DNA of 64,000 nucleotides from Deltaproteobacteria bacterium (lineage in GTDB: Bacteria > Myxococcota > XYA12-FULL-58-9). The position numbers and the translations under genes are program-made. The notes below the pieces were generated by a model that saw only the letters and a program-made list of their open reading frames with translations, was not told the DNA's origin and ran no database searches. Positions 3,907 to 11,583 of the stretch are shown piece after piece. The stretch lies in contig JACRCV010000034.1 in assembly GCA_016218825.1 (NCBI GenBank), forward strand, positions 62,001-126,000, written 5' to 3'. Each line of letters begins with the position of its first letter. Within the stretch, counting starts at the first letter, position 1.

Positions 3907-3997
3907 GAGGACCGGGACGACTGTCCGCAGGCGCGTGGGCCCATTCCGGGGCGCGAGCGCTTGGTGCCGCGAGCGGCGGCGGGAAGGACGAGGGCAG

Positions 3998-5056
3998 ATG
4001 GCACGCGAGAAGTTGTGCGTCGGCATCGACATCGGCGCCAGCTCGGTCAAGCTGTGCCAGCTGAAGGTCAGCAAAGGCGGCCAGGCGCTCGTCAACTTCG
4101 GGTTGGTGCCGTTGCCGTCCGAGGCGGTGGTCGACGGCGCGTTGATGAACGCGCCGCGCATCGTCGAGGCGATTCAGGAGCTGGTGGCGGCGCACAAGAT
4201 CAAGAACAAGCGCGTCGCGATCTCGGTCTCCGGTCACTCGGTGATCATCAAGAAGATCCCGTTGCCGCAGATGACGCGCGACGAGCTCGAAGAGTCGATT
4301 CAATGGGAGGCGGAGCAGTTCATTCCGTTCGACATCCAGGACGTCAACATCGACGTCCAGATCGTCAACCCCAAGTCGGCGCAGCAGGGGCAGATGGACG
4401 TGGTCCTGGTGGCGGCGAAGAAGGACCTGGTCAACGAGTACACCTCGCTGATCGCCGAGGCCGGCCTGCAGGCGGTGGTCTGCGACGTCGACGCCTTCGC
4501 GATCCAGAACATGTTCACCACCAACTACGACGTCCCGCCGGCCGAGACCGTAGCGCTCGTGAACGTCGGCGCCTCGAAGACCAACATCAACATCGTCGCC
4601 GCCGGCAACCCGAGCTTCACCCGCGACCTGACGATCGGCGGCAACGCGTTCACCGAAGAGATCCAGAAGCAGATGAACCTGTCGTTCGACGAGGCCGAGG
4701 CCTTGAAGATCGGCGGCAAGGACAACCGCGACACCGACGTCGTCATCCCCCAAGACGTCGAGCGGGCGCTGCAGTCGGTGGCCGAGAACCTGACCAGCGA
4801 GGTGCAGCGCTCCATCGACTTCTACTCGGCGACCAGCGCCGACCCCGCGCCCTCGCAGCTCTATCTCGTGGGCGGCAGCGCCCGCTTGTTGGCGTTGTCG
4901 CGCTCGATGGAGGCGCGCATCGGCGTGCCGGTGCACGTCGCCGATCCCTTCCGCCAGATCCAGGTCAGCCCCCAGGACGCCGACTACGTCAAGGCCTTCG
5001 GTCCGACCGCCGGGGTCGCGGTCGGCCTGGCGCTGCGCTCCGAGGGGGACGGCTGA
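3998..5056 (+). CDS. pilM: PilM, type IV pilus inner-membrane platform ATPase-like protein
   Basis: 352 residues. It begins with the actin-like nucleotide-binding motif CVGIDIGASSVKLCQL, as PilM does, and is of typical PilM length. PilM is a cytoplasmic actin-fold protein that binds the N-terminus of PilN and anchors the PilN/O/P alignment complex of the type IV pilus machine. I chose the ATG at 3998 because it has GGAAGG and GAGGG ribosome sites just upstream and starts right at the PilM homology. The stop overlaps the pilN start (TGATG). It is the first gene of a pilM-N-O-P-Q-aroK cluster, an order conserved in many proteobacteria. Confidence 0.94.
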   Translation: MAREKLCVGIDIGASSVKLCQLKVSKGGQALVNFGLVPLPSEAVVDGALMNAPRIVEAIQELVAAHKIKNKRVAISVSGHSVIIKKIPLPQMTRDELEESIQWEAEQFIPFDIQDVNIDVQIVNPKSAQQGQMDVVLVAAKKDLVNEYTSLIAEAGLQAVVCDVDAFAIQNMFTTNYDVPPAETVALVNVGASKTNINIVAAGNPSFTRDLTIGGNAFTEEIQKQMNLSFDEAEALKIGGKDNRDTDVVIPQDVERALQSVAENLTSEVQRSIDFYSATSADPAPSQLYLVGGSARLLALSRSMEARIGVPVHVADPFRQIQVSPQDADYVKAFGPTAGVAVGLALRSEGDG

Positions 5057-6212: not shown

Positions 6213-6757
6213 GCGCCCGCAGCGATTATCACCGCCGCGCGCTGGCGGTGCTCCTGGTGCTGACCTCGGCCTGCGCGAGCGAAGAGAGCGGCGGCATGGC
6301 CGCGGCGCCTGCCGGCCCGGCGAAGAAGGCCGGCGGTGCAGGCGCGGCCAGCGTCGAGAAGGCGGAGGCGGCGGCGCCGGCTTCGACCTGGGCCTATTCG
6401 CCGATCGGCAAACGGGACCCGTTTCACTCCTACCTCGCCGACCTCGACGAACAGGTGAACAGCGAGCGCGAGCACAAGATTGAAGAGACCGAGAAGTACG
6501 AGCTCGACCAGTATCGATTGACCGGGCTCGTGACCGGCACCGCGCAGCCGAACGCGATGGTCGAGGATCCGACCGGCCGCGGCCACGTGCTGCACATCGG
6601 CACGCGACTCGGGAAGAACGGCGGTCGGGTGACCCGGATCGCCGACGACGCCATCGTCGTCACCGAGGAGTTCCGCGCCCCCACCGGCGAGCGCGTCCGT
6701 CTGCCGATCACGATCAAGCTGCCGAAACCCGACCTCGAAACGAGCGACCGGCCTTGA
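6209..6757 (+). CDS. pilP: PilP, type IV pilus periplasmic lipoprotein
   Basis: 182 residues. A lipoprotein signal ends at LTSAC (Cys at about residue 23). A disordered Ala/Gly/Lys-rich linker follows. Then comes the PilP signature YSPIGKRDPFHSYL near residue 70, and a beta-rich C-terminal domain. PilP links the PilN/PilO complex to the N-terminal domains of the PilQ secretin. The start overlaps pilO by ATGA, and pilQ begins 19 nt after its stop. Confidence 0.93.
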   Translation: MSARSDYHRRALAVLLVLTSACASEESGGMAAAPAGPAKKAGGAGAASVEKAEAAAPASTWAYSPIGKRDPFHSYLADLDEQVNSEREHKIEETEKYELDQYRLTGLVTGTAQPNAMVEDPTGRGHVLHIGTRLGKNGGRVTRIADDAIVVTEEFRAPTGERVRLPITIKLPKPDLETSDRP

Positions 6758-6776
6758 AGCAGTCGAGGAGCCACTG

Positions 6777-9700
6777 ATGGCAACCACAGCAAGGACACCC
6801 CGCATGACCGTCGCCGTTCTTGACCTGACGCGGATGACCGGGCGCAAGACGGCGCTGGTCGCGGCGCTGGCGACGCTGTTGCCGCTCGACCTCTCGGCGG
6901 CGAAGAACGTCATTCAAGGGGTCGACGTCGTCGGCTCCGGCGACACCCGCATCGTCCGCATCCAGACCAGCGTCGAGCCGACCTTCACGGTGTTTCGGCT
7001 CTCGGACCCGATGCGCGTCGTCGTCGACGTCTCCGGCGCCGACCTGTCCGAGCTCGACGCGCCGATCGCCATCGAGGACGGCTTGATCGATCAGATCGCG
7101 ACCCGGCAGTTCTCGTCCGACGGCTTCAACATCGGCCGCCTGATGATCGGCTTCACCAAGACCGTCGCCTACGACGTCCAGGCCGAGGGCAACGCCGTCG
7201 TCGTTCGGGTCGGCAACACGCCGCAGACCCAGGTCATCGCCGCCGCGCCGCCGCCGGTGGCGCCCGTCGATCGCGCCGCCGCCGAGCGCTTCGAGACCGC
7301 GCGCGCCGAGGCCGACAAGGCCGCGGAGCGCGCCGCCGAAGAGCGTCGCAACGCGGAGACCGCGGCGAGCCGGGCCAAGGAGCAAACCGCGCAAGCCGAG
7401 AAGATCGCGAAGGAATCGGAGCGCCTGCGCAGCGAGGCCGAGCGCGCCAAGGCCGAGGCCGACGATCTGCGCCGCCAAGCCAACGACGCGATCAGCCGTG
7501 ACCGGGCGCAGAGTGAAGCGGCCGCCAAAGAGGCCGAGGCCAAGGTGGTCGAGCTGCAGAAGGCGGCGACCGCGGTGGCCCGCTCCCGCGCCGCCGCCGA
7601 GCGCATCGCGGCCGAGGCCGAGCGCAAGCGCTTGGACGCCGAGGAGACCGCGGCGCGTGCCGAGGCCAAGCACAAGGAGCAGGTGGCCGAGCTCGAGGAG
7701 CGCGTCGCCAAGGCGCAGCAGGAGAAGCAGGCCGCGGAGAAGGCGCGGGAGCGCGCCCAGGTCGCCAAGGCCGAGGCCGAGCGGGCGGGGGCCGCGGCCG
7801 AGCAGGCCCGAGCCGCGGCGTCCAAGGCGCGTGAGGAGATCGACGCCAGGCTCGCCGAGATCAGTGACCGCGAGCGCGAGGCCCAGGCGGCGCTGCAGCA
7901 GCTGCACGGCGAGAAGCGCGCCGTCGCCGCGATGCGCGAGCGCGTCAGCGCCGACCAGGACGCGGTGGAGAAGGCGCGCCGCGAGCTCGAGGCCAAGGAG
8001 CGCGAGGTCGAGGGCAAGCAGGCGGCGATGAGCACCGAGAAGACCCACCTGGTCGCGATGCAGCGCAACGTGGAGGCGGCGCAGGCGAAGATCGAGAACG
8101 ACCGCAAGGCCCTCGCCGCCGCCCAGGCCGAGCTGCAGAAGAACGAGGCGGAGCGCTCGGAGCGCGAGCGCCACGCGGCCGGGGTGCGCAAGGCGACGAC
8201 CCAGGAGCTCAACGCGCTGCAGGCGGAGCGGACCCGGCTCGAGGAGCTCAAGCGCAGCATCGACGCCGCCCAGGCCGAGATCAAGCGGGAGCGCGACGCG
8301 GTCGCCAGCGTCCAGACCAACCTCGAACGGCTGCAGCCGGAGGCCGAGAAGATCGCGAAGGAGAGCGCCGAGCTCAAGCGACAGCGCGACGAGCTCGAGC
8401 GCAAGCGCCGCGAGCTCGCGGCCGCGGAGGCCAAGGCCAAGGCGGAGGAGCAGGCCCGCAAAGAGGCGCAGGCGCGCCATGACGACAAGGTGCGCCGCGA
8501 AGAGCAGGCCCGTCGCGTCGAGCTGGCGCGCAAGGAAGACGAGCAGCGCCAGGCGCGTCGCGCCCGCGAGGAAGCGCAGGCCCGCAAGGAGGCGGCGGCA
8601 CGCGCTCGGGAGAGCAAGAGCGCTCGCAAGGCGGCGAGGGCGGCGAGCGTCGATCCGGAGATGTCGCCCGACCTGGCGACGGTGGACGAGGCCGACGGTG
8701 GCGGGCCCGAGCCCACGGCCGCCGAAGCGCCACCGATGACGCCGGCGAGGACCGGCGCCAAGGGCAACCGGGTGCGCCTCCTCGGGGTCGAGCCGCGGGG
8801 GCGTGACGATCAGACCGGCGTGCTGTTGCTCTTCGACCGCAACCCGACCTTCGACGCCCAACGCCTCGAGAATCCGCCGCGCCTGGTGGTGGACCTCAAG
8901 GACACCGACCGCAGCGTCAGCCGCAGGACCTACGGGGTCCGGAGCCCGTACGTGCGGCGGGTGCGGCTCGGCGACCACGGGCAGCTGTTGCGCGTGGTGT
9001 TCGATCTGTCGCGCGCCGACACCGAGCACGTGGTGACCGCCACCAGAGAGGGCCTGTTCGTCAGCCTCAAGCCGGCGGTGGTGGCGAAGGCGCCGCAGGC
9101 GACCCCGGCCGCAGCGGTGGTTGCCGCGGTCGAGCCGCCGAAGCCGGTGGCGCCCCAGGGAACGCCGGTGCTCAAGGACGTGCGTTTCACCGGCAACCCC
9201 GACGAGGCGCACATCGTCGTGGAGGTGCCGGCCGGGGCGGTGACCAAGGTCGACGACCGCTCGCCGAAGTCGTGGGTGCTCGAGATTCGACCCGCGGTGG
9301 TGCCGAAGAGCCTGGAGGCTAGCCTCGACACCACGGCGTACGGCTCGGTGGTGCGCCTGGTGTCGACCTACCAGGCGTCGTTGGAGCCGCCGGTGGTGAA
9401 CGTCGTCGTCAGTCTCACCGGACCGGCGACCCAGACCCTCGTCGACCAGGGCGGCAAGGTCTCGTGGGTGATCCGCACCCAGGCCAAGCCCATGACGGTG
9501 GCGTCGGTCGCGGCGCCGCAGACCGCCGGTTTCGCCGCGGACGCGGCGGTGATGGCGGCGAGCACGCCGACGCAGACCCGGCAAACCAAGAAGCGCATCT
9601 CCATCGACCTCAAGGAAGCCGAGATCGTGAACGTCTTGCGGCTGCTCGCCGAGGTCTCGGGCGCCAACATCGTCACCAGCGACGACGTCAAGGGCAAGAT

Positions 9701-10901
9701 CACGCTGCGCTTGCGCGACGTGCCGTGGGACCAGGCGCTCGACACCATCCTCAAGTCGAAGGGCTACGATCGCGAGTGGCAGAACAACATCATGCGCATC
9801 GCGCCGGCCGGCAAGATCCGCGAAGAGAACGAGATGAAGCTCGCCAAGAAGAAGGCGATGGAGCAGATCGAAGACACCAAGATCAAGATGATCACGATCA
9901 ACTACGCTTCGGCCGCCGACATCGTCGGCCAGATCAAGCCGCTGTTGAGCCCGCGCGGCAGCGTGCAGCCGGAGCCCCGCACCAACACCATCATCCTCGA
10001 GGACGTCGACTCCAACCTCGACCGCGTGGTCGAGCTGGTGCGGCGCTTGGACAAGCAGACGCCGCAGGTCTTGATCGAGTCCCGGATCGTCGAGGCGTCG
10101 AGCAGCAACAACGACGAGCTCGGTATCCAGTGGGGCGGCACCGGGCAGGCGACCGCGATGCAGGGCAACCCGACCGGGCTGATGTTTCCGGGCGACGTCA
10201 CGGTGTCCGGCGCGGCCGATCCGGTGAACGGCAACCGCACCGAGGGCACCAGCAACCCCGGCCGGTTCGCGGTCAACCTGCCGGCGGCGATCGGCGCCGG
10301 CGCCGGCGGCGGCCTGGGCTTCATCTTCGGCTCGGCGGGCGGCAGCCAGCTGCTGAACCTGCGGCTGTCGGCGCTGGAGTCGAACGGCAAGGGGCGCATC
10401 ATCAGCTCGCCGCGGATCACGACCCTCGACAACAAGACCGCCAAGATCTCCCAAGGCATCGACATCCCGATCACCGTGGTGTCGGCGGCCGGCGCCAACA
10501 CCCGCTTCATCCCCGCGGTCCTCGAGCTCGAGGTGACGCCGCACGTGACCAACGACGGCAGCGTGCTGTTGAAGATCAAGACCTCGAAGAACGAGCCCAG
10601 CCAGTCGCTGAAGGGCGCGCAGGGCGATCCGGCGATCGAGAAGAAGCAGGCCGAGACCGAGGTGTTGGTGAGAGACGGCGACACCACGGTGATCGGCGGC
10701 ATCTACACCCGCAACACCGCCGAGAGCTATGACGGCGTGCCGTTCTTCTCCGACATCCCGGTGCTCGGCTGGCTGTTCAAGAAGCGCTCGACGAGCGACA
10801 AGCGCGCCGAGCTGTTGGTGTTCATCACGCCGCGGATCATCAACCGCGAGGAGTCGGCGGTGCAGTCGACGTCGCTGCCGGGCAAGGTCTCGGACAAGTA
10901 G
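6777..10901 (+). CDS. pilQ: PilQ, type IV pilus secretin with a long coiled-coil insert
   Basis: 1,374 residues, far longer than the roughly 700-900 of known PilQ proteins. In order: signal peptide; AMIN domain 1 (about 43-147); Ala/Glu/Lys/Arg-rich coiled coil (about 166-625); AMIN domain 2 (about 663-767); AMIN-like domain 3 (about 798-902); secretin N-terminal STN/N0 domain (about 938-1015); N1 domain (about 1037-1110); and the secretin pore domain (about 1100-1362), which ends in the family motif ELLVFITPRII. PilQ forms the outer-membrane channel for the pilus, and its AMIN domains bind peptidoglycan. The ATG at 6777 has a GAGGAG site 6 nt upstream. The frame is continuous across the insert, so it is not a fusion caused by a frameshift. 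The insert could span the periplasm or extend the peptidoglycan anchor; that is inference. Confidence 0.93.
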   Translation: MATTARTPRMTVAVLDLTRMTGRKTALVAALATLLPLDLSAAKNVIQGVDVVGSGDTRIVRIQTSVEPTFTVFRLSDPMRVVVDVSGADLSELDAPIAIEDGLIDQIATRQFSSDGFNIGRLMIGFTKTVAYDVQAEGNAVVVRVGNTPQTQVIAAAPPPVAPVDRAAAERFETARAEADKAAERAAEERRNAETAASRAKEQTAQAEKIAKESERLRSEAERAKAEADDLRRQANDAISRDRAQSEAAAKEAEAKVVELQKAATAVARSRAAAERIAAEAERKRLDAEETAARAEAKHKEQVAELEERVAKAQQEKQAAEKARERAQVAKAEAERAGAAAEQARAAASKAREEIDARLAEISDREREAQAALQQLHGEKRAVAAMRERVSADQDAVEKARRELEAKEREVEGKQAAMSTEKTHLVAMQRNVEAAQAKIENDRKALAAAQAELQKNEAERSERERHAAGVRKATTQELNALQAERTRLEELKRSIDAAQAEIKRERDAVASVQTNLERLQPEAEKIAKESAELKRQRDELERKRRELAAAEAKAKAEEQARKEAQARHDDKVRREEQARRVELARKEDEQRQARRAREEAQARKEAAARARESKSARKAARAASVDPEMSPDLATVDEADGGGPEPTAAEAPPMTPARTGAKGNRVRLLGVEPRGRDDQTGVLLLFDRNPTFDAQRLENPPRLVVDLKDTDRSVSRRTYGVRSPYVRRVRLGDHGQLLRVVFDLSRADTEHVVTATREGLFVSLKPAVVAKAPQATPAAAVVAAVEPPKPVAPQGTPVLKDVRFTGNPDEAHIVVEVPAGAVTKVDDRSPKSWVLEIRPAVVPKSLEASLDTTAYGSVVRLVSTYQASLEPPVVNVVVSLTGPATQTLVDQGGKVSWVIRTQAKPMTVASVAAPQTAGFAADAAVMAASTPTQTRQTKKRISIDLKEAEIVNVLRLLAEVSGANIVTSDDVKGKITLRLRDVPWDQALDTILKSKGYDREWQNNIMRIAPAGKIREENEMKLAKKKAMEQIEDTKIKMITINYASAADIVGQIKPLLSPRGSVQPEPRTNTIILEDVDSNLDRVVELVRRLDKQTPQVLIESRIVEASSSNNDELGIQWGGTGQATAMQGNPTGLMFPGDVTVSGAADPVNGNRTEGTSNPGRFAVNLPAAIGAGAGGGLGFIFGSAGGSQLLNLRLSALESNGKGRIISSPRITTLDNKTAKISQGIDIPITVVSAAGANTRFIPAVLELEVTPHVTNDGSVLLKIKTSKNEPSQSLKGAQGDPAIEKKQAETEVLVRDGDTTVIGGIYTRNTAESYDGVPFFSDIPVLGWLFKKRSTSDKRAELLVFITPRIINREESAVQSTSLPGKVSDK

Positions 10902-10911
10902 GAGGTCGACG

Positions 10912-11583
10912 ATGGAGCGCGGCAGACATCGAAGTGGCGAGGCCCGGACGTGGCCGGACGAGGCGCCGCACCCGGACAGCGTCCCGGCCGTGGTGTCGAT
11001 GCCGGCGGCGGCGTTGTCGCCGGCGCGCTCGCACCTGGTGGTCGTGGGCTTCATGGGCGCGGGCAAGAGCACCGTCGGCAGGCTGATCGCCGAGCGCACC
11101 GGCCGGCCCTTCGTCGACCTCGACGACGCGATCGCAGAAGAGGCCGGCCAGTGCATCGCCGACTTCATCCGCAAGAGCGGCGCGGTGGCGCTCAAGGCCA
11201 AGGAGCGCGCGGTGCTGCGGCGCCTGCTCGCGTCGTCGCAGCCGTTGGTCATCGCCACCGGCGGCGAGACCTTCTTGGACACCACGGTGCGCGACTGGCT
11301 GCGGGTGCGGGCGCACACGGTGTTCCTCGAGGCCGAGCCCGAGACCCTGGTGCGGCGGCTGTCGGCGGGGAACCCCTTGCAGCAGCGCCCGGTGAAGCCG
11401 GGGCCGAACCTGGTCGAGACGGTGCGGCGGCAGCTCGTGGGGGTCACCCCGATCTATCGCGAGGCGAGCTTGACGGTGCACAATGATGGGGAGCGGATCG
11501 AAGAGGTGGTCGGCGAGATCGCGCGGCAGCTGCGCCTCGACCGCACTGAGCACGGCCGCACGCCGCGGCGCGCGGCTGGATGA
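10912..11583 (+). CDS. aroK: Shikimate kinase-like P-loop kinase
   Basis: 223 residues, with an N-terminal extension of about 38 residues compared with usual AroK (about 170). P-loop GFMGAGKST at 46-54; FVDLDDAI with the shikimate-contacting Asp; GG pair at 117-118 in ATGGET; lid arginine region QQRPVKPG. Shikimate kinase phosphorylates shikimate on the way to chorismate. The usual substrate-site motif GE..FR is replaced here by GAVALK (Lys95 in place of Arg), so activity towards shikimate is probable but not certain. GGAGG overlaps the pilQ stop and sets the ATG at 10912. The pilQ-aroK order is the same as in many gammaproteobacteria. Confidence 0.83.
   Translation: MERGRHRSGEARTWPDEAPHPDSVPAVVSMPAAALSPARSHLVVVGFMGAGKSTVGRLIAERTGRPFVDLDDAIAEEAGQCIADFIRKSGAVALKAKERAVLRRLLASSQPLVIATGGETFLDTTVRDWLRVRAHTVFLEAEPETLVRRLSAGNPLQQRPVKPGPNLVETVRRQLVGVTPIYREASLTVHNDGERIEEVVGEIARQLRLDRTEHGRTPRRAAG

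Follow-up and report, generated by a model that had tools for sequence, protein, structure and literature searches.

A type IVa pilus secretin whose linker between the first two AMIN domains is a 458-residue coiled coil is encoded in the window, that is, the whole stretch of 64,000 nucleotides of a Myxococcota contig analyzed here (JACRCV010000034.1, positions 62,001 to 126,000). The reading that we tentatively favor is that the coil serves as a hinged helical arm, carrying AMIN domain 1 (AMIN1) tens of nanometers from the pore, where it would grip the cell wall. Features of the locus are given in Table 1.

Table 1. Features of the pilMNOPQ locus and of its coil-armed PilQ (positions in the window)
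Feature	Position	Strand	Evidence
pilM	3956..5056	+	PF11104, 1.8e-74
pilN, 187 aa	5056..5619	+	PF05137
pilO, 195 aa	5625..6212	+	PF04350
pilP, 182 aa	6209..6757	+	PF04351
pilQ, coil-armed type IVa pilus secretin, 1374 aa	6777..10901	+	ORF; TIGR02515
AMIN domain 1 (head of the putative arm)	6921..7208	+	PF11741, 36.8 bits, piece searched alone
Pro-rich hinge, AMIN1 to coil	7215..7271	+	Sequence; pLDDT <50 at model residues 108-126
Coiled-coil insert, 458 aa	7272..8645	+	3.5-residue periodicity; composition; helix in both AlphaFold2 models
Conserved proximal coil, residues 166-374, Ala-rich core	7272..7898	+	Ungapped in G000, G001, G002 and G004
Heptad-register defect, one extra residue, residue 239	7491..7493	+	Same place in 4/4 species
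Gly378, candidate hinge	7908..7910	+	Alignment; break in G001 model at 327-367, none in window model
Flexible linker, coil to AMIN2	8646..8768	+	pLDDT <50, model residues 572-623
AMIN domain 2	8799..9050	+	PF11741, 48.2 bits
AMIN-like domain 3 (marginal)	9177..9431	+	PF11741, 20.6 bits; cutoff 20.5
STN / N0 domain	9669..9806	+	PF07660
Secretin_N / N1 domain	9885..10067	+	PF03958
Secretin pore domain	10371..10841	+	PF00263, 6.4e-50

The window protein scores 449.3 bits against TIGR02515 (IV_pilus_PilQ; curated cutoff, 284.35), and PF00263, PF03958, and PF07660 all exceed their cutoffs in a Pfam search. By family membership it is the type IVa pilus secretin PilQ, as the first-pass annotation had proposed. 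The pilMNOP genes lie directly upstream on the same strand, and open reading frames and Pfam matches together give a complete pilMNOPQ operon. The domain order is signal region (assigned by eye), AMIN1, coil, AMIN2, a marginal AMIN3, N0, N1, and secretin; the pieces on either side of the insert, scored separately against PF11741 (cutoff, 20.5 bits), each hold an AMIN domain, upholding the placement first given to the insert. The best PDB match is the PilQ of 3jc8 (E 1e-182, from residue 692 onward), which we take to be the Myxococcus xanthus protein and which has 901 aa compared to 1374 aa here. PilQ of the M. xanthus type shares the operon, exceeds the TIGR02515 cutoff, and has the order AMIN-AMIN-AMIN-N0-N1-secretin, but according to PMC10653833 flexible linkers connect its AMIN domains, whereas in the window protein one of these linkers is the coil. 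The coil-armed PilQ is an altered form of a known secretin and not a new system. Searched alone, the coil has no sequence relative in the PDB, and a profile search of the insert placed no Pfam family on it.

The insert occupies residues 166 to 623, in frame. Its start is the one first annotated, and the end given then (8650) lies 5 bases past the helical segment as cut here. It is composed of 27% alanine, 18% glutamate, 15% arginine, and 8.5% lysine, with one proline and four glycines. The best hydrophobic period is 3.50 residues, a signal matched by 0 of 300 shuffles of the whole insert on each of three hydrophobicity scales; together with the helix seen in both AlphaFold2 models, this bears out the long heptad coil claimed from the sequence alone. 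For the first 210 residues, the signal is not significant when only ILVMFYW are counted (32/300 shuffles reach it), because the core of this proximal segment is alanine; with alanine counted, no shuffle of 300 reaches it. Relatives with a coil were compared in the same way, and in what follows G000 is the window genome, G001 belongs to the same genus, G002 to another genus of the same family, and G003 and G004 to two further families of the order, which was sampled in eight genomes (G000 to G007); G010 represents a distant Myxococcota family. Periodicity is weak in some of these relatives on one scale, as in G004 with ILVMFYW (36/200 shuffles) and, with alanine counted, in G003 (11/200) and G010 (6/200). 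Register assignment by dynamic programming gave the window coil a single unbroken register of 375 residues, compared to a mean of 110 and a maximum of 280 in 60 shuffles. Only G000 and G001 (289) exceed this maximum, with G002 (116), G004 (194), and G010 (151) below it, and under a lax penalty even the window coil has seven register breaks. Its heptad phase is near-constant over about residues 249 to 556.

GC content by codon position in the coil (0.81/0.49/0.94) has the same pattern as in the flanking coding domains, indicating that the plus frame is the coding one and ruling out a wrong reading frame for the insert. A 1577-aa open reading frame runs antisense to pilQ (6714-11447, minus strand); because the codon-position pattern supports the plus frame, this antisense frame most likely arises just from the GC-rich codons. 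The coil region contains no large tandem DNA repeat and only two weak 21-bp arrays of 2.4 copies each (7769-7819 and 8369-8418). Each unit encodes exactly one heptad, and the arrays may be a relic of expansion through heptad duplication; with just these two arrays present, tandem DNA duplication was rejected as the sole origin of the coil. Internal protein repeats do not exceed shuffle level in the coil, and length changes are not confined to heptad multiples, since gaps of 7 and 28 occur among relatives but so do gaps of 2, 9, 10, 30, 32, 45, and 115.

The proximal part of the coil is conserved beyond its composition. Its first 210 residues align to those of G001, G002, and G004 with 68, 49, and 44% identity and no gaps, an ungapped alignment that spans two families. 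Identity in the distal half is 42, 28, and 38% for the same genomes, with long gaps in G001 and G004, so the coil is not kept at a constant total length, a point that weighs against the arm reading given below. With heptad a/d positions assigned from the window protein alone, proximal a/d residues are retained at 55 of 61 positions compared to 88 of 149 other positions in G001, 44 of 61 compared to 58 of 149 in G002, and 43 of 61 compared to 49 of 149 in G004. Because core positions are rich in alanine, the count was repeated with alanines only, giving 35/36 versus 21/32 in G001 (Fisher p 7e-4), 30/36 versus 15/32 in G002 (p 1.6e-3), and 33/36 versus 14/32 in G004 (p 2e-5). The a/d excess persists among alanines, so composition alone does not suffice to explain it; in the distal coil the excess is small or absent. 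The one-residue register defect at residue 239 (insert position 75) recurs in four of four species at four penalties, and a glycine lies within a residue or two of Gly378 in G001, G002, and G004. We take this pattern to reflect purifying selection that, at least for the proximal arm, acts on a packed helix. A coil acting as a docking platform for another periplasmic or wall-remodeling protein could also account for sequence conservation of the first 210 residues beyond the heptad pattern, but conservation peaks at the helix core and not on an exposed face, and no partner was identified, so we consider docking quite improbable.

Five of the eight genomes sampled in the order (G000 to G004) encode the coil. 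As cut for comparison, the inserts measure 460 residues in G000, 363 in G001, 460 in G002, 169 in G003, and 268 in G004; the corresponding linkers without a coil measure 79 residues in G005 and 141 in G007, and the PilQ of G006 (L037) is a 667-residue frame without AMIN1 in a genome that retains PilNOP. The insert is real: it recurs in the separate genomes G001 and G002 and, shorter, in G003 and G004, and assembly error was rejected on these grounds. The first-pass annotation had named coil-free close relatives, together with signs of misassembly, as what would speak against the insert; such relatives exist (G005, G006, and G007), but no sign of misassembly was seen. A phylum-wide search of 195 genomes yielded a PilQ match in 191 and a match above cutoff in 173. 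Among 77 of these genomes whose PilQ was read, only six have a coil-like stretch of at least 100 residues (G000 to G004 and G010), the next longest being 80 residues (G008); the others were judged by open-frame length among the matches listed. Most of the remaining short coil-like stretches sit at the N0/N1 region and not between AMIN domains. A coil is likewise missing from thirteen PilQ loci of named genomes, G001's excepted. In the phylum of a Desulfamplus genome, 289 of 297 genomes searched have a match, the longest open frame among the matches listed is 1127, and eight of the longest frames were read and contain no coil. The comparison of PilQ across Myxococcota proposed at first thus shows the insert to be clade specific, with one separate coil of unrelated sequence elsewhere among the proteins read.

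That other coil, of about 476 residues, lies at the same AMIN1-AMIN2 junction in G010, the sole genome of its order in the sample, and shares no significant similarity with the other coils (best E, 0.93). Starred branches part G010 from the order in a 41-row secretin tree, requiring at least two changes of the coil trait; most simply, the coil probably arose twice, with G010 as an independent gain. In a PilN-O-P-Q tree, p-AU (0.017) spoke against grouping the coil-bearers of the order as one clade, but G006 is a long branch there and few forks are starred, so the coil-bearers may yet form one clade. The linker at this junction also differs in nature: G011 (L042), which in the secretin tree lies closer to the order than any other relative, carries a linker of roughly 200 residues rich in proline, lysine, valine, and alanine, so that the AMIN1-AMIN2 linker varies in kind and not only in length. 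The statement that known PilQ proteins have short AMIN linkers therefore does not always hold within Myxococcota. Such variation across the phylum would suit passive growth of a tolerated linker in GC-rich genomes, with no function of its own, as would the two weak one-heptad repeats inside the coil and the fast-diverging distal half with its small or absent a/d excess. Passive growth is nevertheless very improbable given the 210 ungapped residues, the a/d conservation that survives the alanine control, the common register defect, and the second coil in a distant lineage, which suggests selection.

The geometry of the envelope limits how such a coil could be accommodated. A helix rises about 0.15 nm per residue, so full extension would give a length of about 68 nm for the 458 helical residues and of about 31 nm for the proximal 210. 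The tens of nanometers first estimated therefore apply when the helix is fully extended; with a hinge or hairpin, the reach could fall to a half or a third. The distance from inner to outer membrane in Escherichia coli is 30 to 32 nm according to PMC8824477. An extended coil of about 68 nm could not fit upright into an envelope of this width and would have to run along the wall, fold up, or be bent at a hinge. An unusually thick envelope, the other possibility raised at first, is not supported: in the order, PilN has 185 to 187 aa and PilO 190 to 203 aa with or without the insert (PilNOP of G005 lies off its contig), PilP lengths lend it no support either, and the pore is thus probably no further from the inner membrane.

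AMIN1 appears to be tied to the coil. In each of the four coil-bearing relatives it is at least as conserved as AMIN2 and AMIN3; AMIN1, AMIN2, and AMIN3 share 63, 45, and 47% identity with the window protein in G004 and 62, 46, and 51% in G002. Across G002 to G004, AMIN1 identity is 58 to 63%, compared to 40 and 48% in coil-free G005 and G007, and secretin identity is similar with or without a coil (65 to 70%; 67% in G005 and G007). In this small sample, AMIN1 and the coil behave as if they function as a unit. In M. xanthus, according to PMC10653833, septal and polar peptidoglycan is the proposed ligand of the PilQ AMIN domains, which are required to recruit PilQ to nascent and new poles, but a single AMIN domain suffices for PilQ to assemble correctly and localize to the poles, so that a remote AMIN1 is not obviously needed.

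The two AlphaFold2 models agree on helix and disagree on shape. In the model of the window protein, which starts at residue 41, helices span 126-282, 285-426, and 432-579 (157, 142, and 148 residues); in the G001 model they span 127-326 and 368-493, with a break at 327-367. The bends lie at different positions, and with pTM as low as 0.29 and 0.24 we trust the helix but not the overall shape. VIA-align pairs window-model residues 304-512 with an SMC hairpin and residues 356-506 with the iSH2 coil, targets that we take to be antiparallel, at Z 13-14, values common for helical models in this comparison; matches to PI3K iSH2, SMC, and YscO were taken only as common helix-hairpin geometry. The bend in the window model and the antiparallel matches suggest that the coil may fold back, and an antiparallel hairpin or two- to three-helix bundle of 20 to 30 nm would make a rigid spacer or strut, holding AMIN1 near AMIN2 or at another periplasmic height. 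The division of the coil into three helices of similar length in the window model, the unusual conservation of block 460-483 in G001, and the glycine near 378 common to four species are consistent with such a strut. Yet the G001 model runs straight through the turn at 467-471 and bends elsewhere, the turn block is partly lost in G002, the segment after the turn is strongly shortened in G001 and all but missing in G004, the heptad phase hardly shifts over residues 249 to 556, and monomer predictions offer no partner helix. A mirror-correlation search for a hairpin center was not discriminating. On balance, folding back seems to us rather unlikely, but it is the strongest competitor of the extended arm.

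Pairing between subunits was considered as well. PilQ is an oligomer of 12 to 15 subunits, according to PMC10653833, which makes neighboring coils available, and the conserved a/d core is expected of a helix packed on another helix; coils of adjacent subunits could therefore pair as a sheath, collar, or extra ring round the secretin vestibule and stiffen the machine. However, a g-e' salt-bridge test for a parallel in-register homo-oligomer was negative (9 attractive and 11 repulsive pairs), a flexible linker separates the coil from the ring, and lengths of 169 to 460 residues among relatives would be odd for a fixed collar, making such pairing improbable. Intrahelical i,i+4 ion pairs are enriched over a heptad-preserving null (z 5.2, 4.9, 1.2, 3.6, and 3.4 in G000, G001, G002, G004, and G010), which would also be expected of a lone helix.

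The hinged arm thus remains our tentative choice, and we infer from the above an arm that is extended, runs along the wall, and serves in anchoring or capture. A long alpha-helical coiled coil built into the AMIN1-AMIN2 linker of the pilMNOPQ secretin would be tied to AMIN1 by the Pro-rich hinge and to AMIN2 by the flexible linker, with the secretin still held at the usual height between PilP and outer membrane. The arm would take AMIN1 sideways, up to about 30 nm with the proximal segment alone or to the full extended length, and 12 to 15 subunits could then grip a wide peptidoglycan patch and not just the wall beside the pore. One likely benefit would be that a PilQ monomer could catch wall at the division site or pole before it assembles, since a hinged arm would enlarge the area it can search and later spread the anchor points; another would be to spread the force of pilus retraction over the wall. 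A more specific arrangement is doubtful. In it, each secretin would be the hub of about a dozen extended in-plane spokes, tens of nanometers long, whose AMIN1 grips peptidoglycan far from the pore, and Myxococcota would have evolved this design two or more times at one domain junction. PilT family ATPases exceed their cutoff in eight of eight genomes of the order, a presence that suits the arm reading; they occur equally in members without the coil, indicating that the coil does not track retraction. TsaP, sought through PF16538, was found in none of these eight genomes, but it did not exceed the cutoff in 7 genomes including three of f13 either, so its absence carries no information.

TolA and Lpp are periplasmic proteins with a long helix and resemble the coil by description. 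Among described systems, the closest analog in operation is SlpA/OmpM of Deinococcus, Thermus, and others, in which, according to PMC9388160, an N-terminal wall-binding domain is followed by a long periplasmic coil, of a length that varies among relatives, and a C-terminal outer-membrane pore; the coil of Deinococcus SlpA, 28 nm long, ties that pore to the wall. A coil between wall-binding domain and outer-membrane pore is also present in the window PilQ. The protein is not a member of this group, however, because AMIN replaces the SLH domain, for which no match up to E 0.1 was found across the full window PilQ, and a secretin, the 12- to 15-fold pore of a dynamic machine, replaces the trimeric beta-barrel; it also has extra AMIN domains at the pore end. 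No description of a coil-armed PilQ was found in titles and abstract openings of the open-license literature searched. Live questions include the way secretins are anchored in the wall and the means by which type IVa pilus machines find division-site or polar peptidoglycan. Natural versions of 169, 268, 363, and 460 residues, together with coil-free relatives, separate the position of the anchor from that of the pore, a series that lets reach, and not only affinity, be weighed for placement and force. The coil of G010 adds a version at the same junction with an unrelated sequence. The truncated PilQ frame of a further genome, G036 (L023), starts with an AEK triplet repeat at the contig edge and perhaps belongs to another long helical linker.
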